Source: Desulfosarcina widdelii
GTDB taxonomy: Bacteria > Desulfobacterota > Desulfobacteria > Desulfobacterales > Desulfosarcinaceae
Reading direction: 5' to 3'
Length of the DNA: 64,000 nucleotides
NCBI RefSeq assembly: GCF_009688965.1
Contig: NZ_AP021875.1
Location: 4,154,001 to 4,218,000, forward strand
In this document: piece by piece, positions 40,332 through 58,508 of the stretch
How positions within the stretch are numbered: the first letter of the stretch is position 1
How the letters are laid out: each line of letters begins with the position of its first letter
Made by a program: the position numbers and the translations under genes
The notes under the pieces: generated by a model
The model's input: the letters and a program-made list of their open reading frames with translations, nothing else
Told to the model about the DNA's origin: nothing
Databases searched by the model: none

Positions 40332-40634
40332 ATGAACAAGATGGAAAGGGGTAAGAACGAACTGCTCAATGCAATCAACACCAGTATGAAAGAGTTGCAG
40401 GAGGGGCTCAGCATGCACTGCTGCCTGATGAACTCCCTGCTGGAAGGGGAGATTGACGAACGCCGCCTTCAGCCGTTGGTCGACCGCTGCCCCAAACGGT
40501 CGCGGGAACGCAAGCTGGAAAAGGCGCTCACCGAGGCCATCGGTGTGTTGGATGAAAGCAGGAAAGCATTTAAATCCAAAAGATTGGAAGTGCTGCGAAA
40601 AAAATTGACCCAGGTATTGATCGAGGCCGAATAA
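40332..40634 (+). CDS. Small helical protein of unknown function
   Basis: A 100-residue protein I do not recognise. It looks all-helical and charged (ELLNAINTSMKELQEGLSMH, then RSRERKLEKALTEAIGVLDE), with two adjacent Cys. GAGG precedes the ATG. Half of a DtxR-type site (GTTAGAGAG) lies near 40307. It is followed by the first TCTTACG/AGTGAAGGCG leader and then DUF2325, so transcription from here must pass that terminator. Confidence 0.7.
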   Translation: MNKMERGKNELLNAINTSMKELQEGLSMHCCLMNSLLEGEIDERRLQPLVDRCPKRSRERKLEKALTEAIGVLDESRKAFKSKRLEVLRKKLTQVLIEAE

Positions 40635-40649
40635 CGAAAGTCAGGAATG

Positions 40650-40731
40650 TCTTACGGGTTCCATGCCGGTTGAACGGCATGGAAAAAGTGAAGGCGTAAC
40701 TCGAAGGAAAATCGTTCGAGATACGCCTTTT
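40650..40731 (+). promoter_or_regulatory. Structured leader with terminator, copy 1 (before DUF2325)
   Basis: TCTTACG (40650-40656) is followed by the hairpin CCATGCC/GGCATGG (40661-40682), then AGTGAAGGCG (40687-40696). The last bases open a terminator: GGCGTA and CTCGAA pair with TTCGAG and TACGCC (40693-40727), followed by a T-rich stretch. The next gene starts 42 nt later. I see no promoter between the preceding gene and this element, so it should act in cis on read-through transcription. Confidence 0.75.
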
Positions 40732-40772
40732 CTATTTTCGGGACAAAGCCACGCCATCGGAATGGAGGAAAT

Positions 40773-42020
40773 ATGTCAATCCAAACGCACGACGCCGCCG
40801 TTGAGGATAATTCCAGACAACTGGCCGAATTGATTGCAGCCGGTCCGTCCCGGTTGCCCATTTGGGAAGTCAACCACTGTTTCAAGTGCCCGGTCGTCGG
40901 CATGTGTATCACCCATGCCGAGCAAAAGCGCCTGCTGAAAAAAATGGGCTTGCTCGGAAAATCGGACGGCCCATTTGAAATGCACGAAACCCTTGTGGCA
41001 TCGCTGGACAAAGAAAACCGTTTGTCGCGCAGGATCGACAACCTGCTGGAGCGCAAATTCGGCAAGCAGGCGGTAGCGCTGTTCCAACTGGAAGACCAAC
41101 CCTTTCTGGCCACCTTCAGAGAAGCGCTGGAATCTGGAGAGGTCGAGGCCAACCTGTGGGCCACGGCGGTCAGCCCGGACCTGTCGCTAACCTGCCGCCG
41201 GGCCGTCTTCGGGGACATCCACATGACCATGCACTGGAACGGCGAACAGTTGATGCAATTCAAGCGCAAATTGTCCCGGCAGCGACAGGACATGGAAAAG
41301 ATGCAGCAGCGAATCGCGGAATTTTCCAGGCAGCGGCGGGATCTGAAAAGAGAAGCCAATGGCCATAAGCGCGAGACAAACGAGCTGAGAGTGGTCCTTG
41401 CCGCCGAGCGGAGAGAAAAGTTGCTACTGCAACAGGCCATGTCCCACGCGCAATGCCCCGGGTGTGCAAAGGATCGGGAGCAAAGCGATCACGCGATGCA
41501 ATGCGAGACCGATTCGCTACGCCGACAGTTGGGCCGTGCAAGGGGCCAAATCGTCTCCCTTGAAGAGAAAAACCTTCGATTGTCATCGCGTCTCAAACAG
41601 CAGCATAAGCTCAACCGGCACGTCCGGGAGGAGACGCGCAACATCATCACCGAAATAACCGCTATGAACCGCTGCGACAAAAACTGTCCCTCGTTCGATC
41701 TTTGCAAAAAACGAATCCTGATCGTCGGCGGCGTCACTCGTATGGAAACCCTTTACCGCGACCTGATCGAAAGCAGTAATGGCGTTTTCGAGTACCATGA
41801 CGGCTACGTCAACAAAGGGGCCAAGGGATTGGAAACCCGCCTGAAGCGAGCGGATATGGTTCTGTGCCCGGTGAACTGCAACAGCCATGCGGCCTGCTCC
41901 ATCGTCAAGAATCTGGGCAAGAAGCATAACAAAACCGTTCATATCCTGACCAACGCAAGTTTGAGCGCCGTATCCCAGGTAATCTGGGGAGAAAACTGCA
42001 ACGCCTGCACCCTCAACTGA
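40773..42020 (+). CDS. DUF2325 protein with coiled coil and cysteine motifs
   Basis: A 415-residue protein. The N-terminus has CFKCPVVGMC. Residues ~150-290 are a long, basic coiled coil with a central CPGC. The C-terminal ~100 residues are a DUF2325 domain (KRILIVGGVTRMETLYRDLI, then MVLCPVNCNSHAACSIVKNL). Two more Cys precede that domain (RCDKNCPSFDLC). DUF2325 function is not known. GGAGG precedes the ATG. It follows leader copy 1 and is followed by a small STAS-like gene. Confidence 0.85.
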   Translation: MSIQTHDAAVEDNSRQLAELIAAGPSRLPIWEVNHCFKCPVVGMCITHAEQKRLLKKMGLLGKSDGPFEMHETLVASLDKENRLSRRIDNLLERKFGKQAVALFQLEDQPFLATFREALESGEVEANLWATAVSPDLSLTCRRAVFGDIHMTMHWNGEQLMQFKRKLSRQRQDMEKMQQRIAEFSRQRRDLKREANGHKRETNELRVVLAAERREKLLLQQAMSHAQCPGCAKDREQSDHAMQCETDSLRRQLGRARGQIVSLEEKNLRLSSRLKQQHKLNRHVREETRNIITEITAMNRCDKNCPSFDLCKKRILIVGGVTRMETLYRDLIESSNGVFEYHDGYVNKGAKGLETRLKRADMVLCPVNCNSHAACSIVKNLGKKHNKTVHILTNASLSAVSQVIWGENCNACTLN

Positions 42021-42049
42021 AAATCTTCTAAGGAAATGGAGGCATTTTC

Positions 42050-42412
42050 ATGAGCAGCAATTTTCATGTCGAATTCGAGAAAAGCAACGGCAACCTGCAT
42101 GTCCGTCCCAGCGGCGATTTTGACGGCAGCTCCGCATGGGAGCTGGTCAATCTGCTCCATGAGCAATACGACGGCCACGGACAGGTCTATATCGACACCG
42201 CCAACCTGACGGCGTTGCGCCCTTTCGGATGCAGCACCTTCCAGTGCCGTCTGAACCGACGGCATCTGCCCTTCGAACGCCTCCATTTCAAAGGAGACAA
42301 GGGCGCCGAAATCGCCCCCAAGGGCAGCACCGTTATCGCTCATTCTCCAAAATGCCGCTGCGGGGGCGATTGCGCCAACTGCAAGTGCAATCGGTCCAAG
42401 GAGAAGCAATAG
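42050..42412 (+). CDS. Small STAS-like protein with cysteine tail, paralogue 1
   Basis: A 120-residue protein. Residues ~5-75 resemble a STAS/anti-sigma-antagonist fold (NLHVRPSGDFDGSSAWELVN, then VYIDTANLTALRPFG). A conserved FKGDKGAEIAPKGSTVI follows, then a cysteine tail (CRCGGDCANCKC). It is homologous to the protein at 52355-52768. GGAGG lies 7 nt before the ATG and DUF2325 ends 29 nt upstream, so they form an operon. Function unknown. Confidence 0.75.
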   Translation: MSSNFHVEFEKSNGNLHVRPSGDFDGSSAWELVNLLHEQYDGHGQVYIDTANLTALRPFGCSTFQCRLNRRHLPFERLHFKGDKGAEIAPKGSTVIAHSPKCRCGGDCANCKCNRSKEKQ

Positions 42413-42436
42413 GCCGCGGGGCTTGATTCAAGGCAA

Positions 42437-42655
42437 ATGCGAAACAACAGCTCAACCAAGGTTTGCATGCAAACGTCAAGGGACAACCATATCCGTGTCG
42501 AAATCGCCGAAGAGACGCTGCTGCGCCTTCTGGCCCGCGGTCAGGTCTGTGCGGCGGATTTTCGATGCCTGGACTGCAAATCCAAACAGTGCTTGTGGCG
42601 CTTGTGTTTGCGAAGCTGCTCCGGCTGCGGAAGGAACACAGCAATGGTTAGCTGA
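42437..42655 (+). CDS. Small cysteine-rich protein (putative)
   Basis: A 72-residue frame starting at ATG 42437, or 62 residues from ATG 42467, which has AAGG at better spacing. It reads VEIAEETLLRLLARGQVCAA, then DFRCLDCKSKQC and LCLRSCSGCG, with eight Cys in 33 residues. The spaced cysteines suggest a metal- or Fe-S-binding peptide. Two overlapping frames look like shadows. It sits between the STAS-like gene and the feo promoter. Moderately supported only. Confidence 0.5.
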   Translation: MRNNSSTKVCMQTSRDNHIRVEIAEETLLRLLARGQVCAADFRCLDCKSKQCLWRLCLRSCSGCGRNTAMVS

Positions 42656-42717
42656 AATCCAAAACGGGTGCCGAGAAGTCTATTTCAACTGGTTTTCTCA
42701 AGAGAAATAAATTTTCC

Positions 42718-42785
42718 TTGACATCCCCCATGCGATGTGAAATTAAAGTTTCCTCGTTAAGTTAGAATCTTCTATCTTAACGAGG
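42718..42785 (+). promoter_or_regulatory. feoAB promoter with long nested DtxR-type palindrome
   Basis: TTGACA (42718-42723), 17 nt and AATTAA (42741-42746) form a promoter. At 42752-42785 lies a 34-bp near-perfect inverted repeat: outer arms CCTCGTTAAG and CTTAACGAGG, inner core TTAGAATCTTCTA. Fifteen of 16 possible base pairs match. The core is the palindrome found before dtxR and at 56933. It sits at the expected start of transcription. Confidence 0.7.
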
Positions 42786-42789
42786 TGTG

Positions 42790-42876
42790 TCTTACGGCCT
42801 TCGGCCATTCAATGGTGCGGAGGAAGTGAAGGCGTGACGCGAAGCATGTTTCTGCATGCCCGGTTGCGCCTTTTTT
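42790..42876 (+). promoter_or_regulatory. Structured leader with terminator, copy 2 (before feoA)
   Basis: TCTTACG (42790-42796), then a hairpin CCTTCG-CCAT-TCA-ATGG-CGGAGG with small bulges (42798-42823), then AGTGAAGGCG (42825-42834). The terminator uses GGCG/CGCC (42831-42834 with 42867-42870) and an inner GCATG/CATGC, followed by six T. feoA starts 29 nt beyond. Iron uptake would be switched by whether RNA polymerase passes this site. Confidence 0.78.
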
Positions 42877-42904
42877 GTTTTTTGGCTGGAAAGGAGATCG
42901 AGCC

Positions 42905-43123
42905 ATGACCCTGGATCAATTGAAGCCGGGAAGCGAGGGAAGGATTAAGAAGTTGTCGGTGCGGGACAAGTTGGGACAACGGCTGATGGACATGGGGGTC
43001 TATCCCGGATTGAAGCTGAAGGTGCTTCGCAACGCCCCCCTGGAAGATCCCATGGAGGTCGAACTGGACGGCTACTTCGTCAGCCTGCGGCATGACGAAG
43101 CCCGTTTTGTAGAGGTGGAATAA
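42905..43123 (+). CDS. feoA: Ferrous iron transport protein A
   Basis: A 72-residue FeoA, an SH3-like cytoplasmic partner of FeoB: MTLDQLKPGSEGRIKKLSVR, LGQRLMDMGVYPGLKLKVLR and a closing DGYFVSLRHDEARFVEVE. AAGGAG precedes ATG 42905 by 8 nt. The feoB start lies one base after its stop. Preceded by leader copy 2 and a DtxR-type palindrome. Confidence 0.95.
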   Translation: MTLDQLKPGSEGRIKKLSVRDKLGQRLMDMGVYPGLKLKVLRNAPLEDPMEVELDGYFVSLRHDEARFVEVE

Positions 43124-43124
43124 G

Positions 43125-45602
43125 GTGAAGAACGAGAAAATCCTGGTGGCCCTTGCCGGCCAGCCCAATTGCGGGAAATCCACGGTATTCAATGCCCTTT
43201 CCGGGGCCAGCCAGCATGTGGCCAACTACCCCGGCGTAACCGTGGACAAGATGACCGGCTGGTACCGCCACAACGGTTATCGGGTGGAGCTGGTGGACCT
43301 GCCGGGAACCTACAGCCTGAGTTCCTATTCTCCCGAGGAACGGGTTTCCCGGGACTTCATTCTGCACGAAAAACCGTCAGTGACGGTCAACATCATGGAT
43401 GCGTCCAATCTCAAGCGCTGCCTCTATCTGACCTTTCAGCTGCTGGAAATGGAAATTCCGGTTGTCCTGAACCTCAACATGATGGATGTGGTCGAAAAAC
43501 GCGGCATGACCATCGACATGGAAACGCTGTCCGGCCGACTGGGCGTTTCCGTGGTGCCCACCACCATGAAAAACGGTCGGGGGAAAAAGGAGCTGCAGGA
43601 TGTGATCGACGTCGTGGCCGCCGCAGAAAAAACGGCAGAACCACTGCACATCGACTACCAGGAGATGGAGCCGGTTCTTCGGGAAATCATCGACCGGCTG
43701 GCCACGGAAACCACCTTTTCGGTGCAATACCCGCTGCGCTGGCTGGCCATCAAGCTGATGGAAGGCGATGAGGCCGTTCAGGGTATGATCCGCGATCAGC
43801 ACCCGCAAGCCGATATATTCATGGCCATGGTGGACCAGGTCCGAACGGACTTTGAAAAAGAAGTTGGCGACGCTCCCGAAGTCCACATCGCCACGTGTCG
43901 CTACAAAGCGGCAGACACCATTTCCAAAGCGTGCCTTCAGTTGCCCAAAGGCACGCGGCGCCCGCTTTCGGATAGAGTTGACGACCTCGTTTGCCATCGA
44001 TTTCTCGGGCCGGCCATTCTGGTGGGTATCATCTGGCTGCTTTACTACCTGGCCATCGTCCAGGGCTACAACATCACCAATTACACCTGGCCGCTTCTGG
44101 CCAAACTGCGCAGCCTGACCGAGGCCGTGACCCCTCAGCCCGGTTTCATCGACATTCCGCTGATCCGCGAATTTTCCTTGTGGATCGTGGACAGCGTCAA
44201 TGCTCTGCTCAACTATATCCCCATTTTCTTCATTTTGTTCGCGTTCATCGCCATCCTTGAAGACAGCGGTTATATGCCCCGCATGGCGTTTATCATGGAT
44301 CGGCTTTTCAGCCGCTTCGGTCTTCACGGCCAGTCCACCCTGCCCATGGTGCTGGGCGGCATCTATGTGGGCGGCTGCGCCGTTCCTGGGGTGATGTCCT
44401 GCAAGGGCATTCCGGACGAACGGTCTCGCCTGGCCACCATCTTGATCATCCCGTTGCTCAACTGCCTGGCCAAGGTCCCCCTGTATGTGCTGCTGATTAA
44501 TATCTACTTCGCGGCCCACAAGGCCTGGGCCATGTTTTTCATCTCCACCATCAGTTTGCTGATGGTGCTGCCTGTGGCCAAAATTCTCACCCTCACCGTT
44601 CTCAAGGACAAAGATACGGCGCCCTTTGTGATGGAAATGCCGCCCTATCATTTGCCCACCTGGCGGGGCGTGCTTAGCCGGGCCGTGGAACGGGTGTGGC
44701 TGTTCATGCGCAAAATTTCCACCATTGTGGTCGCCGTAGCCGTGGTCGTTTTCGTGCTGCTGCAATTCCCCGGGATTGGCAAAGAACGCATGGATTACTA
44801 CCAGACCCGAAAAGACAAGGCGATCGCCGCCTTCAATAAAAAAATCAAGGGGACTCCTTTTCATGAGGGCCTCCAGGTCGATCGAATCATGGCGATGATG
44901 CTCTACTGGGAAGCCTACAAGGATGCCAAGATGGGCGCCGGAGGGCAAGACGGCGTCGCGGCGGTGAACGCCGATTTCGAGGCCCGGGACGCGCTTTTCT
45001 TCAAAATCGTCCAGCCGGGAAAGGACATGATCGCCAAAAAAGTCGGCCGGGAATTCAAAAAGCTGGTCAAAAAGCGCAAGGGCCTCTTGCGGGAGATGCG
45101 CAAGGAGCGCATCGACAATAGCTTTCTGGGCACAGCGGGGCGTTGGCTGGAGCCGGTGACCCGATGGGCCGGTTTCAACTGGCGGGTCAACGTGGCCCTG
45201 CTCAGCGCCCTTGCGGCCAAGGAGAGCAGCGTGGCCACCTTGGGGGCGCTTTACGAACAGGAGGAAGAGGGCGAAGCCCTGGAAGACCGCATGGCCCGTG
45301 GAGAGGCGGATTTGACGCCCCTGCATGCCCTGGCCCTGATGCTCTTCATGGTGCTTTATCCGCCGTGCATGGCAACTACTATGGCGGTCAAGGTGCAGTC
45401 GGGTTCGGTCAAGTGGATGCTGTTTTCCATCGGCTACCCCATGTTCCTGGGCCTGTCCGTAGCCAGCCTGGTGTTCACGTTGGGAAGCATTTTCGGGCTT
45501 TCCGGCCTGCAGGCCATGTTCGCCTTTTACCTGCTGGCCCTGGGATTCACCGTTTTTATGGGTTTGATTAAAAACCAACCCGAATACATCAAACTTACTT
45601 AA
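43125..45602 (+). CDS. feoB: Ferrous iron transporter B
   Basis: An 825-residue FeoB, the Fe2+ permease with an N-terminal G domain. G motifs: AGQPNCGKSTVFN (from residue 11), VDLPGTYSLSSYSPEE, and LNMMDVVEKRGM. Nucleoside gate regions include GGIYVGGCAVPGVMSCKGIP and the C-terminal LSALAAKESSVATLGALYEQ. A Lys/Arg-rich insert of over 100 residues (about 560-670) separates two membrane regions, longer than in Escherichia coli FeoB. GTG start. First of a long co-directional metal cluster. Confidence 0.97.
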   Translation: MKNEKILVALAGQPNCGKSTVFNALSGASQHVANYPGVTVDKMTGWYRHNGYRVELVDLPGTYSLSSYSPEERVSRDFILHEKPSVTVNIMDASNLKRCLYLTFQLLEMEIPVVLNLNMMDVVEKRGMTIDMETLSGRLGVSVVPTTMKNGRGKKELQDVIDVVAAAEKTAEPLHIDYQEMEPVLREIIDRLATETTFSVQYPLRWLAIKLMEGDEAVQGMIRDQHPQADIFMAMVDQVRTDFEKEVGDAPEVHIATCRYKAADTISKACLQLPKGTRRPLSDRVDDLVCHRFLGPAILVGIIWLLYYLAIVQGYNITNYTWPLLAKLRSLTEAVTPQPGFIDIPLIREFSLWIVDSVNALLNYIPIFFILFAFIAILEDSGYMPRMAFIMDRLFSRFGLHGQSTLPMVLGGIYVGGCAVPGVMSCKGIPDERSRLATILIIPLLNCLAKVPLYVLLINIYFAAHKAWAMFFISTISLLMVLPVAKILTLTVLKDKDTAPFVMEMPPYHLPTWRGVLSRAVERVWLFMRKISTIVVAVAVVVFVLLQFPGIGKERMDYYQTRKDKAIAAFNKKIKGTPFHEGLQVDRIMAMMLYWEAYKDAKMGAGGQDGVAAVNADFEARDALFFKIVQPGKDMIAKKVGREFKKLVKKRKGLLREMRKERIDNSFLGTAGRWLEPVTRWAGFNWRVNVALLSALAAKESSVATLGALYEQEEEGEALEDRMARGEADLTPLHALALMLFMVLYPPCMATTMAVKVQSGSVKWMLFSIGYPMFLGLSVASLVFTLGSIFGLSGLQAMFAFYLLALGFTVFMGLIKNQPEYIKLT

Positions 45603-45615
45603 GGAGGAATGGTTC

Positions 45616-45942
45616 ATGTTCAAACGCAGCGTTTTACCCATTTGTCTGCTGGTTTCGGGAACGATCATTTTCGCCGGGCAGGCCCTGGCCCATACGCCCT
45701 TGTGTTCCTGCTACGACAACGGAGACGGCACGATAACCTGCGAAGGCGGGTTTTCCGACGGTTCTTCGGCTTCCGGCGTGCAAATGCGCGTGGAGAAAAA
45801 GGGCGGCAGAGTACTGCTGAATGGCAAGATGGACGAAGACAGCGAATTCACTTTCGATAAACCGGGCGACGCTTACAAAGTCGTGTTCGACGCCGGCGAG
45901 GGTCATGAGATCGAAATCGACGGCAAGGAGATTGTGGAGTGA
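45616..45942 (+). CDS. Small exported protein of unknown function
   Basis: A 108-residue exported protein. A signal peptide ends at ALA (residue ~25), followed by HTPLCSCYDNGDGTITCEGG and a beta-rich remainder. The body resembles a carboxypeptidase-regulatory-like/Ig-type beta domain. AAGGAGG precedes the ATG. It lies 13 nt after feoB and before a DUF4198 gene, so a periplasmic metal-related role is plausible but not shown. Confidence 0.72.
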   Translation: MFKRSVLPICLLVSGTIIFAGQALAHTPLCSCYDNGDGTITCEGGFSDGSSASGVQMRVEKKGGRVLLNGKMDEDSEFTFDKPGDAYKVVFDAGEGHEIEIDGKEIVE

Positions 45943-46051
45943 ATCATTGTTTTCGCTCGAAAGACAATACGTGAAATAAGAAGCGAGAATTTGGTCGAAT
46001 CGTGACCGTTAGGTATTACAACCGCAATTGATAACGGAAAGGACGCTTTCA

Positions 46052-46852
46052 ATGAAAAAAGCAGTTGTTGTTTTGACAGGTTTACTGGTATTGGCCCTGA
46101 CCGTGCCGGCCATGGCGCATTTCCAGATGATCTACACCCCGGAATCGGCCCTGGAAAAGGCGAAAACCATCGAGTTGAAGCTGGTCTTCACCCATCCCTT
46201 CGAAGCCGGCCATACCATGGACATGGGCCAGCCCGAGCAGTTTTTCGTGGTCCGCAAGGAGAAGAAAAACGACCTGCTTTCCACCCTGAGCCCCATCACC
46301 TGGACCAGCCTGACCAACAGTGGGGCCGCCTATGAAACCACCTACAAGCTGCGGGGCATGGGGGACAATGTCTTCTGCCTGGTGCCCGCCCCCTACCACG
46401 AAGAAGAGGAAGGCTGCTATATCCAGCAGATCACCAAAATGATCGTCAACACCGGCGGTTTTCCCACGGACTGGGATGCCGAGATCGGCCTGAAGGCCGA
46501 GATCGTTCCCCTGGACAAACCCTACGCCCTGTGGACGGGAAACGTGTTCCGCGGTGTCGTCAAGAGCGCCGGCAAGCCGGTCTCCTATGCCGAAATCGAG
46601 GTGGAATACCTGAACCATCAGCCCGAGACGGACAAAAATGCGTTTGCAAAAAAAGCCGAGGTTGAAGCGCCCCAGGATGCTTTCGTAACCATGACGATCA
46701 AGGCCAATGTCAACGGCGAGTTCTCCTTCGGCATACCCAAGGCCGGCTGGTGGGGGTTCTGCGCCCTGGGCGCCGGGCCCGATACGGAGTACAAGGGCAA
46801 GGAGCTGTCCCAGGACGCCGTGATATGGGTCCAGGCCCGCGACATGAAATAG
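46052..46852 (+). CDS. DUF4198 periplasmic protein
   Basis: A 266-residue exported protein. The signal peptide ends AMA (residue ~23), then HFQMIYTPESALEKAKTIEL and KLVFTHPFEAGHTMDMGQPE, typical of DUF4198. Some relatives are linked with nickel or cobalt uptake (NikK/CbiK-like). Histidines and methionines near the N-terminus could bind metal. The C-terminal part (NGEFSFGIPKAGWWGFCALG) is conserved in the family. Codon use and spacing fit the feo operon. Confidence 0.85.
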   Translation: MKKAVVVLTGLLVLALTVPAMAHFQMIYTPESALEKAKTIELKLVFTHPFEAGHTMDMGQPEQFFVVRKEKKNDLLSTLSPITWTSLTNSGAAYETTYKLRGMGDNVFCLVPAPYHEEEEGCYIQQITKMIVNTGGFPTDWDAEIGLKAEIVPLDKPYALWTGNVFRGVVKSAGKPVSYAEIEVEYLNHQPETDKNAFAKKAEVEAPQDAFVTMTIKANVNGEFSFGIPKAGWWGFCALGAGPDTEYKGKELSQDAVIWVQARDMK

Positions 46853-47183
46853 TGTGATTCAACCAACAGCTCCTGTTTCTGGACGGACAAAAATGCATCC
46901 ATGCTTCACCATGTCGCCTCCTTCTCCTGCGACGTCGGTCACCGGGCGGGTCCGCACCTCCTCCAAATCTTGCTCCTGCCCCGTCCGGTGATCTTTTCTC
47001 CCCTCATAGCCCTGCGTCCGCTAAGAGACGGGACATTGGGGCAGTGGATGCCGGGCGCGATGTTTCTTGAAGACTCGCGTCCGGCATCCGCTGCCACTCA
47101 CAAGGATTGGCAACAGATACGATTTTCATAGCTGTTGCGCAACGCGCCGGAATCAGGGCCATACAAAAAACAAAGAAAATACG
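46853..47183. other. Intergenic region with a 20-bp hairpin (47041-47094)
   Basis: 331 bases without a convincing gene. GCAGTGGATGCCGGGCGCGA (47041-47060) pairs with TCGCGTCCGGCATCCGCTGC (47075-47094) over a 14-nt loop, with two G-U pairs. No U-tract follows, so it is not an ordinary terminator. It may stabilise mRNA ends or be a REP-like element. Confidence 0.6.
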
Positions 47184-48920: not shown

Positions 48921-48978
48921 ACTGTGCAATGTGATCGGTGAACCACAAATCAGAGACCGGGAACAACAACCAGGGACT

Positions 48979-49890: not shown

Positions 49891-49891
49891 T

Positions 49892-50566
49892 ATGATTCTC
49901 AAACCGATCTCTTTAAAAGAATACCTCAAAATTCGATGGCTGTGGCTCTCCCTGCTGGCCCTCAACGGTCTGCTCATGGCCTATGTCTATGTGGAAACCC
50001 GCCGCCTCTTCATATTCGATCATGCCGAGATCGTATGGTACCGGGTCATGCAACTCGGCCAGGTTCACTACCATCATCTTAAATGCGCCCCTTTGATCAC
50101 CGGACTGCTCCTGGCCGCCATCCAGTACCTGCCGGAGATGATCGGCGAACGGCTGCGGCTCTCCCTGCATCTGCCCGTTTCTCCCCACCGGCTGGTCATG
50201 GCCCACGTGCTTGTCGGCCTGACGGCACTGGGGCTGGTCATCGCCCTGGATTTATCCGCTCTTTCCCTGATCACGGCCCGGTTCTTTCCGGCCGAGGCTG
50301 TTGCCACGGCTTTGCTGACCGCTCTTCCCTGGTGCCTGGCCGGTATGGCGGCTTATTTGGGGGCTACCCTGGCGCTGCTGGAGCCCGGCTACCGCCTGAA
50401 GTTGTTCAACCTGGCCGTCGCCGCCGGTGTGGCCGGCCTGTTTTTCCGACCGGCTGAACCGGGCGGTTATCTCTTGCAATGGTGCAACCTGGCCGCTTTT
50501 CTGTTGCTGCTGATTCCGGCGGTACTGCTCCCGGCCTATCGATTTCGCTACCGGAGGGTTTCCTGA
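49892..50566 (+). CDS. ABC transporter permease-like membrane protein
   Basis: A 224-residue protein with about six membrane helices (WLWLSLLALNGLLMAYVYVE, APLITGLLLAAIQYLPEMIG, and further segments to the C-terminus). It has no family signature I know, but its position between the ABC ATPase and DUF4857 implies it is the membrane subunit. Its stop overlaps the DUF4857 start (TGATG). Confidence 0.75.
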   Translation: MILKPISLKEYLKIRWLWLSLLALNGLLMAYVYVETRRLFIFDHAEIVWYRVMQLGQVHYHHLKCAPLITGLLLAAIQYLPEMIGERLRLSLHLPVSPHRLVMAHVLVGLTALGLVIALDLSALSLITARFFPAEAVATALLTALPWCLAGMAAYLGATLALLEPGYRLKLFNLAVAAGVAGLFFRPAEPGGYLLQWCNLAAFLLLLIPAVLLPAYRFRYRRVS

Positions 50567-51846: not shown

Positions 51847-51922
51847 GAATTGAGCACGGATAGCAACTCAACCCATTTAGCCGGAAACCCGGAACCATAA
51901 ACCAATAAAACCAGGATGCCTC

Positions 51923-52105
51923 ATGGAAACCATTGCTGTCATTTTCTTTTTCGCCCTGGCTGTCTGGTACCTCTACCGGAGGCTATTGAAAAATCTCAAA
52001 GGTGGACCATTATCTTGCGGTTGCAGTGGATGCGATACCTGTCCGTCAGGATCGAAAACCGGGATGAAGATTGAACAGTCCGATGAAAAAAAGCTTGACA
52101 AGTGA
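51923..52105 (+). CDS. FeoB-associated cysteine-rich membrane protein
   Basis: A 60-residue protein: a single N-terminal helix (ETIAVIFFFALAVWYLYRRL) followed by a cysteine cluster (CGCSGCDTC). This is the pattern of the FeoB-associated Cys-rich family, usually encoded next to feoB. Here it is 6 kb from feoB, at the end of the same co-directional cluster, supporting the cluster's link to iron. AGGA precedes the ATG. Confidence 0.88.
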   Translation: METIAVIFFFALAVWYLYRRLLKNLKGGPLSCGCSGCDTCPSGSKTGMKIEQSDEKKLDK

Positions 52106-52156
52106 TGTCAGTATAATCAGTACGGACTAACTTACAAAGAAATATAAAACACAGGC

Positions 52157-52243
52157 TCTTAGGACTGTCGGGCAACATTGCTCGCGACCAGTAGTGAAGG
52201 CGCTTAGGAACCGAGAGTTTCGGTTATCCAATGCGCCTTTTTT
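52157..52243 (+). promoter_or_regulatory. Structured leader with terminator, copy 3
   Basis: TCTTAGG (52157-52163, one base unlike the others), then a hairpin ACTG-TCG...CGA-c-CAGT (52164-52192), then AGTGAAGGCG (52193-52202). The terminator pairs GGCGC with GCGCC and AACCGA with TCGGTT, ending in six T (52238-52243). A TATAAT at 52112-52117 could start transcription. It precedes the second STAS-like gene and flavodoxin by 111 nt. Confidence 0.75.
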
Positions 52244-52354
52244 ATTGGCCCTGCGACGGCTTTTACCAAACAACAGACAGTGATCGCTGATACCTGTGAT
52301 ATCGGTTGGATAATCATCAACTCATTAAAGTAAGAACAGAAAAGGAGAATAATT

Positions 52355-52768
52355 TTGCATCCTGAATTTAAAATCGAATGCCGCAACAGTAGAGGAAATC
52401 TTCACATCCGGCTGCGCGGGGCGTTCAATGGCATGTGCGCTTGGGAACTGCTTAAAATACTCAGGCAGCACGATGGAACGGGAAGGGTGTTCGTCAACAC
52501 GGCTGGAATCGGCCCGGTGGCCGGTGAAGGGGTGGAACTGTTCCGAATGCACATGAAACGCCGACGAATCCCCCGGGACTGGCTCTATTTCAAGGGAACC
52601 AAGGGATTTAAAATCGCCCCCGACGGCAGCCGGGTGCTGATCTGCAAAAAGGGTAAGCAACCGATGCACGTTCAAGATCGCTTCAGACGGATGAAGCCGA
52701 CCATAAAAATGGTGAAAAACGGAAACAAAGTATGGCCATCCATTGAAAACGAAAGGAAACCGCAATGA
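52355..52768 (+). CDS. Small STAS-like protein, paralogue 2
   Basis: A 137-residue protein homologous to the one at 42050-42412: FKIECRNSRGNLHIRLRGAF, CAWELLKILRQ, VFVNTAGIGPVAGEG and FKGTKGFKIAPDGSRVL. It lacks the cysteine tail of paralogue 1 and ends in a basic stretch. The start is TTG at 52355, 7 nt after AAGGAG; no ATG is available. Its end overlaps the flavodoxin start by 4 nt, so the two are co-translated. Function unknown. Confidence 0.75.
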   Translation: MHPEFKIECRNSRGNLHIRLRGAFNGMCAWELLKILRQHDGTGRVFVNTAGIGPVAGEGVELFRMHMKRRRIPRDWLYFKGTKGFKIAPDGSRVLICKKGKQPMHVQDRFRRMKPTIKMVKNGNKVWPSIENERKPQ

Positions 52769-53214
52769 AAAAGGCATTGATCATCTTTGGATCAGCCACG
52801 GGCAACACGGAAGAAATGGCCGGCATGGTCAAAACAATATTGGAGCAAGCGGATTTCGAGGTCGAGGTCAAAGAGGTCACCGACGCTTCCACGGCGGATC
52901 TTACCGCCGATCACGATCTGCTGCTGCTCGACTGCCCAGCTTACGGGGATGACGAGATCGAACTTCAGGAGGATTTTGCCGATTTTACCGAACAACTAGA
53001 CGGTGTTCGGTTGGACGGCAAGCCTTTCGCCGTCTTCGCCCCGGGTGACAGTTCCTACGAACATTTCTGCGGATCGGTGGACATGCTCGAAGACAAGATG
53101 AACGATCTCGGCGGCAAGATGGTCAACGACGGACTCAAGATCGACGGCGACCCAGGCGACGCCGAAGGAGAAATCGAAGCCTGGGTTGAATCGACCGCCG
53201 CTTCCGTAGTTTGA
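52765..53214 (+). CDS. Flavodoxin
   Basis: A 149-residue short-chain flavodoxin that binds FMN and can replace ferredoxin when iron is scarce. The phosphate loop is GSATGNTEEM; FMN-contact regions are DCPAYGDDE and APGDSSYEHFCGSVD. The order behind an RNA leader of the same kind as that before feoA supports expression under iron limitation. Its ATG overlaps the STAS-like stop. Confidence 0.95.
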   Translation: MKKALIIFGSATGNTEEMAGMVKTILEQADFEVEVKEVTDASTADLTADHDLLLLDCPAYGDDEIELQEDFADFTEQLDGVRLDGKPFAVFAPGDSSYEHFCGSVDMLEDKMNDLGGKMVNDGLKIDGDPGDAEGEIEAWVESTAASVV

Positions 53215-53670
53215 CATTGCCATGATTGAATCGATCCATTCCGTGGCACAAGACCGGCCGGACATTAATCCTTTTCGCCTGAATCCGTCGGCGTTCCGGC
53301 GTTAGTCGAGGCAATTCGGAGCCTGTGTTTCGGATCCGGGTTGCCCCGGCACCATGTTTTCACGGTATCGAATGACAACAAAAACAAGAAGGCACAAGGT
53401 CCTGATCGGAGGTTGGCAGCTCACCAGCAATTGAATTTCCTTCCCGGTATCCACCCGCGTTTCTGAACGGTAATCTTCCCACCTTGCATCTATATGCCAC
53501 GTTCGCACCTGGACCGAAAACGCCTTTTCAATCATCGCGGCAGGTTTTCTCAACGAAGCCTGCCGCGATGCATTTTGAGGCTAAAAAATCCGATGCCGCA
53601 TCAGGGACCCGGCGTTTCACGATAAATGATAAAGCTTGACATATTCGTTTAGGTACTATACATTCATGTT
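53215..53670. other. Intergenic region with a perfect 12-bp hairpin (53533-53570)
   Basis: 456 bases without a convincing gene; a weak minus-strand frame at 53302-53553 lacks any recognisable feature. CATCGCGGCAGG pairs perfectly with CCTGCCGCGATG over a 14-nt loop, followed by only four T. It may end the flavodoxin transcript or be a REP-type repeat. Confidence 0.55.
53636..53664 (+). promoter_or_regulatory. marR promoter and operator
   Basis: TTGACA (53636-53641), 17 nt and TACATT (53659-53664) form a promoter. GTTTAGGTACTATACATT (53647-53664) overlaps the -10 and matches, in inverted orientation at 17 of 18 bases, a motif at 54134-54151. The ATG lies only 7 nt after the -10 and has no ribosome site, so the mRNA may be leaderless. 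Confidence 0.65.
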
Positions 53671-54120
53671 ATGAAAAAAAGAGTCATCAAACTGTCGAGA
53701 ATGCTCCTGCGGGTCTTTAACAAATTCGCCCAAAACGAAAAAAAGCCGCGTCGCTTTGGTGTTGACGAACTGTTGCATCCGTCCGAGATTCACATGGTCA
53801 TGTTGATTGGAGACAATCCCGGGGGCCATGGGGCCGAGTTGGCCCGGATTGCCGGCGTCACCCGGGGCGCAGTCTCCCAAATCATTGCCAAGTTAGAAAA
53901 AAAGGGGATCGTTGAAAAAATCGATGATCCCGAAAACAGTTTAAAAAAGGTGCCAATCCTGACCAACAAGGGCAAGGTGGCCTACTACGCTCACGAGCAA
54001 TTCCATGAGGAGATGGACAAGGACCTCTATGATTATGTGGCCCGGTTGACGGAGGAGCAGGTGGCGGTCATCGAAAATTTTTTAAGGGGGCTGGAAAAAA
54101 TGGCGGATCGACACCGTTGA
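53671..54120 (+). CDS. MarR-family transcriptional regulator
   Basis: A 149-residue MarR regulator. The winged helix is GAELARIAGVTRGAVSQIIA followed by KLEKKGIVEKIDDPENSLKK. N- and C-terminal helices form the dimer interface. There are no cysteines or obvious metal ligands. Matched operator motifs flank the gene, one before itself and one before the methyltransferase, so these two are its likely targets. Inducer unknown. Confidence 0.92.
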   Translation: MKKRVIKLSRMLLRVFNKFAQNEKKPRRFGVDELLHPSEIHMVMLIGDNPGGHGAELARIAGVTRGAVSQIIAKLEKKGIVEKIDDPENSLKKVPILTNKGKVAYYAHEQFHEEMDKDLYDYVARLTEEQVAVIENFLRGLEKMADRHR

Positions 54121-54133
54121 TTTTTTTGCTCAT

Positions 54134-54151
54134 AATGTATAGTAACTAAAC
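54134..54151 (+). promoter_or_regulatory. MarR operator before the methyltransferase gene
   Basis: AATGTATAGTAACTAAAC, the inverted counterpart of the motif in the marR promoter (17 of 18 bases). Its centre TAGTAACTA is itself palindromic. It lies 19 bp before the methyltransferase ATG and just after the marR stop codon. Confidence 0.65.
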
Positions 54152-54170
54152 ATCAAAAAGGGATGAAAAA

Positions 54171-54713
54171 ATGAAGAGACTGTTTAACCCCCAATCGAAA
54201 ACCGGCTATCGCCTCATGGTCTGGACCTTTAGAATCATGGATCTTTTCGGAAAACCCGACCGGCGGTTGGAGGATTTCCGCCTTCAAACGGGAAACGTGG
54301 TGGTAGACTTTGGCTGTGGACCGGGCCGCTATATCCGCAAGGCAGCAGACCAGGTTGGGCCGAATGGCCACGTCTATGCGGCGGATATCCACCCCATGGC
54401 CATCGATCTGGTCAGGCAAAAAATCGACAAGTATCGCCTGGCCAATGTGACGCCGGTGCTGTTGGGCGACAAGCCGGGAACCATTCCGGATCGCAGCGCG
54501 GATGTCGTCTATGCCCTGGACATGTTCCACCAGGTCGATGATCCGGTAACCTTTTTGGAGGGAATTCATCGCATCGTTAAACCAAAAGGCGTGCTTTACC
54601 TGGAAGACGGACATCAGCCACGCAGCCAGAGTCTGGATAAAGTCCAACGCTCAAAACATTGGCGGGTCGCGCGGGAAAATGAACAGTGGATGGAATTAAG
54701 ACCCGCTGCTTAA
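54171..54713 (+). CDS. Class I SAM-dependent methyltransferase
   Basis: A 180-residue methyltransferase. The SAM loop is VVDFGCGPGRYIRKAADQVG; the acidic motif II is VYAADIHPMAIDLV; DVVYALDMFHQVDDPVTFLE is motif IV. It is of the UbiE/Methyltransf_11 type; the substrate (small molecule, lipid or arsenic-type) is unknown. A MarR-type operator precedes it. Its end overlaps the start of the next gene's frame by 28 nt. Confidence 0.88.
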   Translation: MKRLFNPQSKTGYRLMVWTFRIMDLFGKPDRRLEDFRLQTGNVVVDFGCGPGRYIRKAADQVGPNGHVYAADIHPMAIDLVRQKIDKYRLANVTPVLLGDKPGTIPDRSADVVYALDMFHQVDDPVTFLEGIHRIVKPKGVLYLEDGHQPRSQSLDKVQRSKHWRVARENEQWMELRPAA

Positions 54714-55990
54714 AAAACGTGACTATTGATGATGCGGAATTTAAAATTTCAAATATATACGTCGATAGAATACTAACGGATAAGTTATACACAATAGCGG
54801 CGTCTTTTCCCGCCGTTGTGATCAGCAGCGCACGTCAAGTCGGCAAGAGTAAACTGCTCCAGAACACGCTGGGAAAAAACGCTGAAATCGTTGTTTTCGA
54901 TCCTGCTATCGATATTGAGAATGCCCGCCAGGATCCAGAGCTTTTCCTGAACAACCATCCACCGCCACTCATTCTGGATGAAATTCAATATGCGCCGGAG
55001 TTGGTTGCCTCCATAAAGCGCCGTATTGATCGCGACCGTTCTCCCGGCCAGTATATCCTGACCGGTTCCCAGCAATGCGGCGTCATGAAATCCATGTCGG
55101 AAAGCCTGGCCGGACGGGCTGTTTTTTTGGATTTACACAGCTTCAGCCTTCCTGAAATCAACCGCCAAGGCCCCATAACGCCCTGGATGGCAAGATGGCT
55201 TCATTCACCTGAGGCTTTCCTTGCCGAACGTCAAACGCGCCACACCATGGCCACCACACTATACGAGCAACTGTGGCGGGGATTTTTGCCCGAAGCCCAA
55301 TTCCTGCCCGCCGACGTCATCCCCGATTTCTTGAATGCATACCAGCGAACCTATATTGAACGGGATGTCCGGCTTATCGCCGACGTGGCGGACTTCCAGC
55401 TTTTCGGCCGTTTCCTTCGACTAGCATGCGCATTGACCGCCCAAGAGGTCAATTACAGCCAATTGAGCCGGGAATTGGGGCTGACCCCACAGACCGCACA
55501 ACGTTGGATTGCCATCCTGAAATCCACGTTTCAGTGGTTCGAATTTCCAGCGTATTCCGGGAATATGATAAAAAGGGTAAGCAACAAACCCAAAGGCTAT
55601 ATCGCGGATGCCGGGCTTGCCTGCCAGGCCCAGGCGATTTACGCGCCGGCGGTGATTGGCGGGCATCCTCTTTGGGGGGCCTTGTTTGAAACCGCCGTGG
55701 CCTCCGAGTTGAAAAAACAGACCGCACTGCTAACCCCCAGACCCAATTTCTACCATTGGAGGGCGTACAGTGGCGCGGAAGTGGACATCCTATTGGAGTA
55801 TAACGGCATCCTTCATCCGATTGAAATAAATGCCAAGACCAACCCTTCCCGCCGCGACACCATGGGAGTATCCGCATTTCGTAAAAAGTACTCCAAATTA
55901 AAGATCGCCCCGGGTCTCGTTATTGCGCCCTGTGAGAATATGACCCGGTTGTCTGAATCCAACTATGCCGTGCCATGGAATCTGTTATAA
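54686..55990 (+). CDS. AAA ATPase with DUF4143 domain
   Basis: A 434-residue ATP-binding protein of the AAA_14/DUF4143 group. Walker A reads SSARQVGKSKLL and Walker B reads PLILDEIQY; sensor TGSQQ follows. The C-terminal DUF4143 part has YQRTYIERDVRLIADVADFQ, HPLWGALFETAVASELKKQ and a nuclease-like SGAEVDILLEYNG. The start is uncertain: GTG at 54686 (inside the methyltransferase end) or GTG at 54719, both with poor ribosome sites. These genes are often mobile; role unknown. Confidence 0.85.
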   Translation: MDGIKTRCLKNVTIDDAEFKISNIYVDRILTDKLYTIAASFPAVVISSARQVGKSKLLQNTLGKNAEIVVFDPAIDIENARQDPELFLNNHPPPLILDEIQYAPELVASIKRRIDRDRSPGQYILTGSQQCGVMKSMSESLAGRAVFLDLHSFSLPEINRQGPITPWMARWLHSPEAFLAERQTRHTMATTLYEQLWRGFLPEAQFLPADVIPDFLNAYQRTYIERDVRLIADVADFQLFGRFLRLACALTAQEVNYSQLSRELGLTPQTAQRWIAILKSTFQWFEFPAYSGNMIKRVSNKPKGYIADAGLACQAQAIYAPAVIGGHPLWGALFETAVASELKKQTALLTPRPNFYHWRAYSGAEVDILLEYNGILHPIEINAKTNPSRRDTMGVSAFRKKYSKLKIAPGLVIAPCENMTRLSESNYAVPWNLL

Positions 55991-56151
55991 ACGGCAACCT
56001 TGTTGCGGTTTATGATATGGACGATCAGTCCGATGCATGATTAAGACGTATGTAATTTGTGTGGCGGGCGGAGCCTGGAACATTTACGAACCGCGAAAAT
56101 GAAGAACGAGCGTACTTGCCTACCTCCGATGACAAATCTTGTCGAAACGCC

Positions 56152-56676
56152 CTAATTATCGAGATCGAATCCGTTTAAATATTCATCCAGGGCCGCCTTG
56201 GATTCCCCGTCAAGATGCGGACAATCATCCGAGCCTTTGGCGCCCTCGGCCAGCCTGAGGGCAAATACCATGCAGGTCGGTTGGCGGCATTCGCGGCAGT
56301 TGGTCCGGGGCAGATGTTTTAAAATTTCCACCACCTGGGGTCGATCAACCCCTTTATAGCGAGGCGTGATCGTTTCGCGGTTTTGCCAGGCGTCGTTGAT
56401 TTCACGGCGAATCCATTTGATAATTTTTTCGGCCTGCTCGCGGTCCTGCACCGCGTTGACCGTGATCTGATCGGACCGTACGGAGATCAGACGCCCCTGG
56501 GTGCGAAATGTAGCAGTGGGTGGATCTTTTATGTATTCGATGGCACCCAGCACCGCATTTACGTAAGGCAGGGCACAGCCCACATCCTGATTCAGCCGGG
56601 CAATGCCGTTGACGCTCATGGCGCCGGGCATGCAGTGATTGTTGACGATTTCCAGGCTAAAGGTCTTGAGCAGCAT
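56152..56676 (-). CDS. Fe-S cluster protein (CxxC-x4-C FeS domain)
   Basis: A 174-residue protein. The C-terminal part has CRECRQPTCMVFALRLAEGA with a further Cys (DDCP), the four-cysteine FeS domain found in corrinoid/Fe-S proteins and RnfB. The N-terminal ~110 residues (NGIARLNQDVGCALPYVNAV, VRSDQITVNAVQDREQAEKI) are family-specific. It is the only minus-strand gene in this part of the iron region and stands alone. Function unknown, probably electron transfer or corrinoid-related. Confidence 0.8.
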   Translation of the reverse strand: MLLKTFSLEIVNNHCMPGAMSVNGIARLNQDVGCALPYVNAVLGAIEYIKDPPTATFRTQGRLISVRSDQITVNAVQDREQAEKIIKWIRREINDAWQNRETITPRYKGVDRPQVVEILKHLPRTNCRECRQPTCMVFALRLAEGAKGSDDCPHLDGESKAALDEYLNGFDLDN

Positions 56677-56896
56677 TTTTTACTTTCCCGGACGAATTGG
56701 ATAGCATTTGCTATCACCTGCGGTGATATCCAAGCATTCTAATATGGATGCTTCTTTTTAAAAAGTTAGCATCGCGTATCCCAATATAATAATCTCAACC
56801 AGAGGCATTTTCCACCCCAGGTCACACGATTTATACCCGAATAAAAAAATTGATGCGCAGCACGGGCGAAAGCACTTCGCACATCGCAAAAAATAA

Positions 56897-56948
56897 TTGA
56901 CAGTCGGTCCAATGAAAGTTACGACCGATCAAGTTAGAATTTCCTAAC
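56897..56948 (+). promoter_or_regulatory. DtxR-type operator with upstream TTGACA
   Basis: TTGACA (56897-56902) is followed at 56933-56948 by GTTAGAATTTCCTAAC, with perfect GTTAG/CTAAC arms. It differs at two bases from the consensus shared with dtxR and feoA. The palindrome lies 14 nt before leader copy 4. Confidence 0.65.
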
Positions 56949-56961
56949 ATAAATATTTGGC

Positions 56962-57032
56962 CCTTACGACTTGCGACCAATTATCGATGCGCACGGCAGT
57001 GAAGGCGCAAGCGGATTCCCGTTGGGAAGGTC
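56962..57032 (+). promoter_or_regulatory. Structured leader, copy 4 (no terminator)
   Basis: CCTTACG (56962-56968), a TGCG/CGCA hairpin, then the invariant AGTGAAGGCG (56998-57007). Unlike the other copies no CGCC-T6 hairpin follows closely: the next strong structure is GGA-TTCCC-gtt-GGGAA-GG-TCC (57012-57032), and a GCGCC occurs only at 57071. The element precedes the O-methyltransferase by 221 nt. Confidence 0.65.
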
Positions 57033-57253
57033 CATTGCAACTTTTAGTGATTTGGCCGTCTACGCCAACAGCGCCTTCGAAACCCATTGATGGCTGGAAA
57101 TGACGCCGGAAACCAACCGGCGCAGAGCTTCGGCGGTGGTCCCCCGGCGCTTTCTGGCGGCGGTCGGCCAGGTATCCTGAGAATTGAACGTCCCCCCTTT
57201 CATCCAAGCCCTATGCCTATTTCCGGATGGGTAGAAACCGAAAGGAAACGCGC

Positions 57254-58279
57254 ATGAAAAAACTGCCCTCTACCGAAAACAGTTATGCCCCGTTGCATGA
57301 GATGGCTATGGCGCCCATTCGTTCCCGGATGCTGATGGCCGGCATCGAGATGGGCATCTTCGACGAACTGACCGGCTTCCGCCCTGCCGGAGAGATTGCC
57401 GAGGCCATCGACGCCCATAAAGACAATACCGAGCGCTTTCTCAATGCCCTGGTGACCATCGGGCTGGTGGATAAAAAAAATGGCCTGTATCGCAATCGGC
57501 CGGCGTTTTCCGAATTTCTCGTGAGACGTTCTCCAACCTACCTCGGCGAACTGCTGCAAATGATCGAGCACATGTGCCTGGAACCTTTGGACGGCCTTGT
57601 CGGTCTGGTTAAAGACGGCCCCTCTTCGACAACCGGCCAAAACGACTTTGCCTCGGCGGAACTCTGGGCCAGGGCGACCCGGTACTCCGCCGCCTGGGTA
57701 ACCGGAGGAGCCGGGTCTCTAATGGCAGGGATCGTCGGCGAATTGCCTGAGTTTAAAGGTTTTCGCCGGTTGCTGGACCTGGGCGGCGGACACGGCATGT
57801 TCGCGCTCTATTTTGTCGACGCCCATCCGAGTATGACCGGCGTTATTTTCGACCGGTCTGCGGTGGTTGCCGTAGCCGAGGAATTCATCCGGGAATATGG
57901 CATGCAAGAAAGGTTGTCGGTGCTGGCCGGAGATTATCTCACCGACGATATCGGAGAAAATTACGATTTTATTTGGGCCTGTTCCACCCTGAATTTTGCC
58001 CGCCATGATCTCGACGCCCTGTTCGCCAAAGTTAAACGGGCGTTGAATCCCGGCGGCGTCTTTGCTGCTTTACAGGATGGGATGACCCATGATCAGACCC
58101 GGCCCGCTGTCATGCTGGGACATCTGGGGGACTCCATGCGAGAGGATCGGGATCTTTCCTTCGAACAGGGACAAATCGGCGATGCCATGCTGCGCTGCGG
58201 ATTCCGTTCGGTCCGGTCCCGGACGGTGCGCACCCCCATGGGAGAACTGGATCTGGATATCGCCCGTAAGGATCGGTAG
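57254..58279 (+). CDS. O-methyltransferase-family protein with N-terminal dimerisation domain
   Basis: A 341-residue SAM methyltransferase of the plant/bacterial O-methyltransferase type. An N-terminal winged-helix dimerisation domain (GIFDELTGFRPAGEIAEAID) precedes the SAM motif LLDLGGGHGMFALYFVDAHP and VIFDRSAVVAVAEEF. ATG 57254 follows AAAGGA. Such enzymes act on small aromatic or tetrapyrrole-like molecules; none can be assigned. Its promoter region carries the DtxR-type site and RNA leader of the iron region, suggesting metal-dependent expression. Confidence 0.85.
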   Translation: MKKLPSTENSYAPLHEMAMAPIRSRMLMAGIEMGIFDELTGFRPAGEIAEAIDAHKDNTERFLNALVTIGLVDKKNGLYRNRPAFSEFLVRRSPTYLGELLQMIEHMCLEPLDGLVGLVKDGPSSTTGQNDFASAELWARATRYSAAWVTGGAGSLMAGIVGELPEFKGFRRLLDLGGGHGMFALYFVDAHPSMTGVIFDRSAVVAVAEEFIREYGMQERLSVLAGDYLTDDIGENYDFIWACSTLNFARHDLDALFAKVKRALNPGGVFAALQDGMTHDQTRPAVMLGHLGDSMREDRDLSFEQGQIGDAMLRCGFRSVRSRTVRTPMGELDLDIARKDR

Positions 58280-58349
58280 CGATGCGTTGCAGGATCGCAA
58301 CCCGCCAAGCCATTTATTCTCACGGCCGGGTCTTTTATGCAAAAACAGG

Positions 58350-58508
58350 TTGACAAATAAAGAAAATCTAGTGTACGAAACTCCTAAATGAAATAGATAA
58401 CTCTATCTTAATTTAAGTGGTCTTACGACTGGCGGCCGGCAACCGGCGCGTCGAGAAGTGAAGGCGTATCAGAATTTTCCAAATGGCGAATTCGATGCGC
58501 CTTTTTTT
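58350..58508 (+). promoter_or_regulatory. Promoter and structured leader with terminator, copy 5
   Basis: TTGACA (58350-58355); a palindrome AGATA-ACTC-TATCT (58395-58408) whose right half CTATCTTAA also occurs in the feoA site. Then TCTTACG (58421-58427), a GCCGG/CCGGC hairpin, AGTGAAGGCG (58457-58466), and a terminator GGCG/CGCC with inner ATC/GAT and GAATT/AATTC, ending in seven T (58502-58508). No gene follows directly; two further terminator units come before the porin, so it could also be a free small RNA. Confidence 0.72.

Follow-up and report, generated by a model that had tools for sequence, protein, structure and literature searches.

A terminator-bearing leader RNA family of iron genes in Desulfosarcina widdelii and its relatives, with a small companion protein as candidate antitermination factor

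The window analysed here, a stretch of 64,000 nucleotides (nt) from Desulfosarcina widdelii (assembly GCF_009688965.1, contig NZ_AP021875.1, positions 4,154,001 to 4,218,000), carries five copies of one structured leader RNA. Each consists of a stem, P1, in which CUUAC is paired with GUGAAG leaving one G bulged, followed by a G-R/A-A internal loop, a variable hairpin, P2, and an intrinsic terminator. The first copy as modelled starts 13 nt behind the stop codon of a gene for a 100-residue protein, ORF100, which we consider the candidate for a factor acting on this RNA. The genes and RNA copies of the region are as follows, with bit scores of the RNAs taken from a covariance model trained on 23 rows, the window's five included.

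39652..40203, + strand: DtxR-family iron-dependent repressor (PF01325, E 2.9e-21; PF02742, E 7.2e-20)
40332..40634, + strand: ORF100, 100-amino-acid protein, candidate RNA-binding antitermination factor (from alignment, profile, locus comparison and predicted structure)
40648..40734, + strand: RNA copy 1 with P1, P2 and terminator, lying after orf100 and ahead of the DUF2325 gene; 62.7 bits
40773..42020, + strand: DUF2325 protein (PF10087, E 1.8e-24)
42788..42877, + strand: RNA copy 2, upstream of feoA-feoB; 78.0 bits
42905-43123, + strand: feoA, with its ATG at 42905 (PF04023, E 9.7e-20)
43125-45602, + strand: feoB (PF02421, E 6.9e-63)
52155..52244, + strand: RNA copy 3 (CTTAGG variant), upstream of a STAS-like gene and flavodoxin; 55.0 bits
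52765..53214, + strand: flavodoxin (PF00258, E 8e-30)
56960..57048, + strand: RNA copy 4, terminator foot mismatched, upstream of an O-methyltransferase; 54.6 bits
57227..58279, + strand: O-methyltransferase frame, start possibly near 57254 (PF00891, E 2.2e-14)
58419..58508, + strand: RNA copy 5, about 450 nt from the likely porin start; 72.2 bits
58806..60080, + strand: LbtU-family siderophore porin frame, likely start near 58962 (NF033652, E 3.7e-86; 289.6 bits at a cut-off of 90)

An earlier note on this DNA had proposed five copies of one structured RNA, four of them with a terminator, and both statements are borne out by motif and model. The motif AGTGAAGGCG occurs exactly five times, always on the + strand (40687, 42825, 52193, 56998 and 58457), 35-37 nt downstream of YCTTASG (40650, 42790, 52157, 56962 and 58421). 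Allowing up to one mismatch, this 10-mer has eight sites against a mean of 3.66 in 100 shuffles, five of which had at least eight; as the excess over chance is modest for the motif by itself, the evidence rests on the entire structure. Searching the organism's own 7.3-Mb genome with covariance model R1 (built from the 23-row alignment A1) returned the window copies with E-values between 3.6e-18 and 1.6e-11; after them comes a match at E 0.013, so that all clear copies are confined to 18 kb. The terminator is intact in all copies except copy 4, and the CTTAGG variant of copy 3 lacks the final P1 pair. Copy 4, with its mismatched terminator foot, could be a remnant in decay or put to another use: a similar copy in G004 (L246:12734-12822) has an intact foot and stands before an ATPase gene, MoxR-like by eye, and not before the methyltransferase. 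Two small STAS-like proteins without a Pfam match, at 42050-42412 (with a Cys-rich tail) and 52355-52768, lie in the same region, and such proteins recur next to RNA copies in relatives.

The RNA had been called unrecognised, and Rfam holds no match at the copies tested. At gathering scores, the whole window yielded only a tRNA elsewhere; at E <= 10 there was no match at the copies (positions 40000-60000 of the window and copies in eight further loci), and judged for Rfam 15 membership the element reached the gathering threshold of no family in the window or the eight other loci. In a literature search, which mostly did not cover subscription papers, none of the titles and abstracts listed, in several cases the top 6-25 of many, dealt with this RNA or with ORF100.

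A covariance model had also been suggested as the means to find further copies in related genomes, and it did find them. When 60 relatives were searched with a sequence pattern, 20 had matches, many plainly the same element with another central hairpin and a terminator behind. Because the gapped pattern also meets chance sites (its reversed control matches most genomes), pattern matches alone were never counted as RNA. R1 at E <= 0.001 had matches in 15 of 30 genomes of the family and in 26 of 395 sampled evenly across the window's phylum. Of these 26, 19 are clear; the seven weak genomes left out of that number (G129, G235, G284, G297, G355, G391 and G423; 25-33 bits) have matches that resemble bare terminators, and ORF100 is present in none. 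A single genome, G004, has 13 RNA matches. Four of its copies (L247:19405, L248:6232, L248:13207 and L249:4047) show a CUUGC/GCGAAG form of P1 upstream of secreted-looking proteins and are perhaps a sub-family with its own expansion. Weak second matches (21-22 bits) directly behind a full copy, at L289:1275-1391 and L297:1659-1738, could be tandem arrangements. A collection scan with too loose a pattern met at least 119 stretches, mostly chance matches; among the 119 listed, only L090, from an Acidobacteriota metagenome-assembled genome, has the RNA (46.5 bits).

To judge the structure, we used alignment A5, whose 84 distinct rows were fitted to the model, which favours the model: both sides change in 22 of 24 pairs, and all three stems covary, with a covariation score of 0.493 against a shuffled mean of 0.191. 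Neither this score nor any of the five measures was reached in 500 shuffles. P1 is nearly invariant in close relatives and varies with pairing kept in distant ones (UA to CG seven times, AU to GC five times, UA to GC once); thus the bulged-G stem drawn in the earlier note was correct, and the covariation it had asked for appears once distant relatives are included. The stretch between the two motifs had been described as unrelated among copies and always a hairpin, of which the second half holds, since P2 varies yet stays paired, and "unrelated" is only nearly right. The P2 loop is unconserved, and the invariant positions (79 rows) are A56, G57, the bulged G59, G62 and G63. Many copies, for example L220, L232 and L238, also have a purine-rich stretch, often AGGGAYGU, just 5′ of P1.

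The last three bases of the P1 3′ strand, AAG, are at the same time the first three of the terminator stem, where they form AAG:CUU beside the U-run. Column 61 of the alignment thus pairs with column 5 in P1 and with column 139 in the terminator. Among 85 rows, which include one duplicated place (L242 = L243), the triple of P1 5′ base, shared base and terminator 3′ base reads U-A-U in 71, C-G-C in seven, C-A-U in two, U-A-gap in two, and U-G-C, U-G-U and G-A-U in one each; the pair 61-139 is A-U in 74, G-C in eight and G-U in one. The U-G-C row, L252:5815, comes from G020, which belongs to the same family as the window. In the terminator foot, with its six pairs, the covariation score was reached in none of 500 shuffles. 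Because the shared bases change together, from U-A-U to C-G-C, P1 and the terminator are mutually exclusive alternative structures, both of them maintained, as the earlier note had supposed in proposing that they compete. The full terminator is calculated to be more stable than P1 plus a shortened terminator, by a median of 5.0 kcal/mol, and the P1 state is lower in energy in 2 of 79 copies, one of them window copy 4 with its damaged foot. A different antiterminator, in which UUACG of the first motif would pair with CGYAA of the terminator 5′ strand, is attractive from the sequence but was rejected, as its covariation score was reached by 165 and its pairs by 353 of 500 shuffles.

The genes behind the window copies encode, by Pfam or NCBIfam, FeoA-FeoB, a DUF2325 protein, the LbtU siderophore porin, flavodoxin and the O-methyltransferase. 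Copies in relatives also precede genes for TonB-dependent receptors and for FecR-like and ExbB/ExbD-like proteins (recognised by eye), and certain copies precede genes without an evident iron role. Taken together this is an iron-starvation set, in line with the iron link read from the window at the outset. Bacterial iron uptake is usually ascribed to DNA-binding repressors such as Fur and DtxR. The idea that the RNA replaces Fur was rejected, because Fur-family genes occur in 63 of 67 genomes, with and without the RNA alike (32 of 33 and 31 of 34, respectively). Three operator-like palindromes stand out in the window.

39620..39637, no strand assigned: palindrome AGTTATA-N4-TCTAACA upstream of dtxR, seen by eye, with half-sites as before promoter-bearing copies
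42759..42778, no strand assigned: palindrome AAGTTAGA-N4-TCTATCTT, its first base 29 nt ahead of RNA copy 2
56931..56950, no strand assigned: palindrome AAGTTAGA-N4-CCTAACAT, starting 29 nt before RNA copy 4

Across 77 copies examined, 40 have TTGAC upstream, and a palindrome like AAGTTAGA-N4-TCTAACTT (at least 12 of 16 positions) accompanies 26 of these 40 versus 1 of the 37 without TTGAC. In 15 of 27 cases the palindrome starts exactly 29 nt 5′ of the RNA. Since the half-site was chosen from the same sequences that were scored, and shuffling single sequences attains the score 0 to 10.5% of the time, we treat the palindrome as a lead; such operators would belong to DtxR. The promoter-like motif, the 26 copies in which it is joined by the palindrome and the terminator that ends nearly every copy are what one would expect of stand-alone small RNAs that act in trans on iron genes, an alternative already raised in the earlier note. 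We regard it as highly improbable, because copy 1 and many copies in relatives lie on the same strand just behind orf100, between it and the next gene, mostly without a promoter motif of their own. Of all 77 copies examined, 37 lack TTGAC. Its other difficulties are the unconserved P2 loop and the downstream genes, which are mostly iron-related and on the same strand.

ORF100 belongs to no Pfam or NCBIfam family that we could find. In an alignment of 27 relatives, the N-terminal half is variable and the end conserved, with F80, S82, K83, L85, E86, L88, R89 and L92 invariant within a basic C-terminal stretch, AFKSKRLExLRKxL. AlphaFold predicts helices only (pLDDT 79, pTM 0.39), in which the helices seem credible and their packing does not.

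Its distribution follows that of the RNA. Among 67 chosen genomes, ORF100 occurs in 29 of 33 with the RNA and in 1 of 34 taken to be without it. For several order-level genomes the latter label rested on the gapped pattern alone, hence the misfiling of G045, which has the RNA right behind ORF100 (52.8 bits) and counts as positive; G002, likewise filed as negative, has a 32-bit match resembling a bare terminator. Outside this count stand G025, G026 and G029, of which only G025 has ORF100. A profile search of the 395 phylum genomes found the domain in 25, among them 17 of the 19 in which the RNA is clear. As to the other two of the 19, G061 is 66% complete and G142 retains a C-terminal piece. 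Among the eight remaining genomes with the domain, R1 places the RNA behind ORF100 in four (L274, cut short, L279, L282 and L284), it is visible by eye in L283 and L285, and L287 and L288 are of a receiver type described below.

A second model, R2, trained on class I only, was applied to 28 loci with a stand-alone ORF100, a count that leaves out receiver-type L287 and L288, and in 25 of them it finds the RNA behind the gene and on its strand. The 25 include L274, where the RNA is cut by the contig end, and L275, where it lies about 300 nt behind the domain match; the three without an R2 match are L276, L283 and L285, the last two having by eye a TTTTACG/AGTGAAAG form. The distance from orf100 to the RNA is commonly 12-90 nt, with L024 (268 nt) and L275 as exceptions. 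The neighbours vary, DtxR or FeoB upstream and FeoA, DUF2325, LbtU or another downstream, and where a genome has many copies of the RNA, there is in most cases a single ORF100. ORF100 is thus the constant companion of the RNA while its neighbours change.

The earlier note read the element as looking like an aptamer plus expression platform, with downstream genes that point to iron or another metal. What stands of this is a leader-type RNA with conserved single-stranded parts and terminator competition; a metal or small-molecule aptamer as the sensor is not supported, and it is a protein, ORF100, that accompanies the RNA most strongly. In its full form this explanation would make the P1/P2 core an aptamer whose ligand, a metal or a metabolite that increases under iron scarcity, sets the balance between P1 and terminator, with ORF100 merely another gene of the iron operon. 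The conserved bases flanking a short internal loop, switching through shared bases, the several leaders per genome upstream of transport genes and the weak tandem second copies (L289, L297) all suit such a riboswitch. NiCo/czcD and other metal riboswitches are likewise leader RNAs tied to metal transport genes. The NiCo riboswitch is a four-way junction, and our RNA has neither such a junction nor, at the copies tested, a match in Rfam. Its conserved core is very small, with P2 free to vary. Moreover, since stabilising P1 shortens the terminator, a ligand bound to P1 should switch the genes on; Fe2+ would then turn on its own uptake, which is the wrong sign. A riboswitch would also leave the pairing of ORF100 domain and RNA, in two architectures and two phyla, unexplained. 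We therefore judge it unlikely. A small protein encoded beside a DtxR-type repressor gives the right sign of control.

We consider it fairly likely that the RNA and ORF100 make up a protein-dependent antitermination regulon for iron starvation, with ORF100 as the candidate factor. By default the terminator would win and the downstream gene would be off; as it is the default fold, expression of the genes would require the presence of the factor. Under scarce iron, dtxR-orf100 would be expressed and ORF100 made. The ORF100 domain would then probably bind the leader RNA and hold P1, so that the terminator would be shortened and separated from its U-run, letting RNA polymerase pass the stop signal and read into the genes for FeoAB, the LbtU porin, a TonB receptor, flavodoxin and DUF2325. 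The binding, the direction of the switch and the production of ORF100 under scarce iron are what we infer from the genomic data. Such an RNA, spread across the phylum and paired with a candidate protein, would bring control by termination into iron uptake as a further layer.

ORF100 or another protein could instead bind the RNA and strengthen termination, or alter RNA decay or translation. The genomic association is independent of direction, and P1, from the sequence, stacks directly on the terminator stem, which would suit a factor of this sort. We nevertheless hold it to be improbable, given that the shared base changes together with its partners in either helix and that the default fold is already the terminator, so that a factor is needed to prevent it and not to form it. 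Should dtxR-orf100 be repressed by DtxR in the presence of iron, ORF100 would in addition be abundant just when uptake must be on.

Several observations weigh against antitermination by ORF100. The seven C-G-C rows share a common setting and may for that reason represent one event. In the modelled folds, base competition alone might not abolish termination, as P1 spares up to nine modelled terminator pairs. The net charge of ORF100 is small (0 to +6), and no relative was found in the PDB (best E 0.25 by sequence profile and 3.4 by Foldseek). The profile did not find ORF100 in the RNA-bearing G014, G053 and G061 (66% complete), nor in G026 and G029 with their weaker RNA matches, and in G307 feoA follows ORF100 while the RNA is on the opposite strand. 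Linkage alone accounts for part of the co-occurrence, because ORF100 adjoins the RNA.

To our knowledge, few protein families act as antiterminators at leader hairpins. The nearest comparison is with LicT, SacY and BglG: in the passages on LicT drawn on here, the bound protein shortens the terminator stem and separates it from the U-run (PMC3369936), and a leader with stabilised P1 would likewise do so. The covariation of the shared base and the folding energies indicate an antiterminator hairpin exclusive with the terminator, as in LicT and its RNA target, RAT, a resemblance in working and not in membership. The CAT domain is a beta-sheet dimer according to the same passages (PMC3369936), whereas ORF100 is predicted to be all-helical; the CAT and PRD domains are not found in the window ORF100, which has no Pfam family. 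The LicT-type systems control sugar genes, and here iron genes are concerned. With the ANTAR proteins EutV, NasR and AmiR, ORF100 has in common that it occurs as an output domain behind receiver domains (see below) and that leaders with terminators run across a regulon, yet the ANTAR domain PF03861 had no match at E <= 1 in three ORF100, four receiver-type and two further proteins. As far as the source is excerpted, ANTAR RNAs have two hairpins with six-base loops bearing A1 and G4 (PMC3369931); in ours there is a single hairpin, whose loop varies, together with a conserved stem. Since the defining features of either are lacking, we place the system in neither, and the best reading appears to be a new RNA-binding output domain with its own leader that would work like LicT/RAT or ANTAR. 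The gene set overlaps the delta-proteobacterial Fur regulon (feoAB, porins and flavodoxin), for which the portions of Rodionov 2004 consulted give WTGAAAATNATTTTCAW as a DNA box and mention no leader RNA at these genes (PMC545781).

In the phylum of L090 (genome G450), the ORF100 profile matched 15 of 396 genomes, and in 12 of them the protein is a receiver domain with an ORF100-like C-terminus; Pfam Response_reg was confirmed in all three of the twelve that were scanned and in L287. The remaining three are L298 and L311, with the classic RNA behind (56 and 66 bits; the L311 domain match is a short C-terminal piece), and L295 (G450), with no model match behind. In five of these twelve genomes, and likewise in G232 from the first phylum, the gene is directly followed by a variant RNA, CUUGNC-GG-P2-AA-GNC-G-AAG, which has the CUU/AAG foot and bulged G of the classic form, a similar two-base loop and one extra pair. 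R2 recognised this variant in L299 (E 4.3e-9) and weakly in L287 and L301. A strict variant pattern matched 3 of 396 genomes. The domain is present in each of them, and the pattern had been derived from two. Model R3, made from eight copies of seven genomes, matched at E <= 1e-5 in 10 of 14 receiver-type genomes (the twelve, G232 and G150), in 0 of 15 with the stand-alone type and in 0 of 51 controls without the domain.

On balance we lean slightly towards seeing ORF100 as founder of a new family of antitermination domains, whose RNA recognition element would combine CUU/AAG and its bulged G with a GR/AA loop that follows. The free 100-residue form would run a DtxR-linked iron regulon in one phylum, and the response-regulator output form would link two-component signalling with readthrough in Acidobacteriota, which would make it a counterpart of ANTAR independent of that system. 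Against this, and against ORF100 antitermination as a whole, several points from the receiver-type genomes have to be set. The RNA lies directly behind the receiver-type gene in 6 of 14 genomes. The independent support from R3 comes to 3 of 7 genomes outside its training (G716, G718 and G833), because seven of the ten matching genomes supplied training rows, and in these three the RNA is 4-9 kb off or on another contig and never directly behind the gene. Two of the 51 controls gave weaker R3 matches (E 3.3e-5 and 0.0066), and no terminator is evident behind the variant RNA in L303 and L308. Covariation within R3 is thin, with double changes in 2 of 11 pairs (8 rows). Shared-base covariation, one protein for many leaders and the existence of a receiver-domain form open the idea to direct tests, for which a protein of 100 residues and an RNA of 90 nt would suffice.

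L325 (G485) gave a weak R3 match of 30.7 bits, and the ORF100 profile found nothing in that genome. The loci L299-L310 encode receiver-domain proteins with an ORF100-related C-terminal domain, several of them beside other signalling genes.

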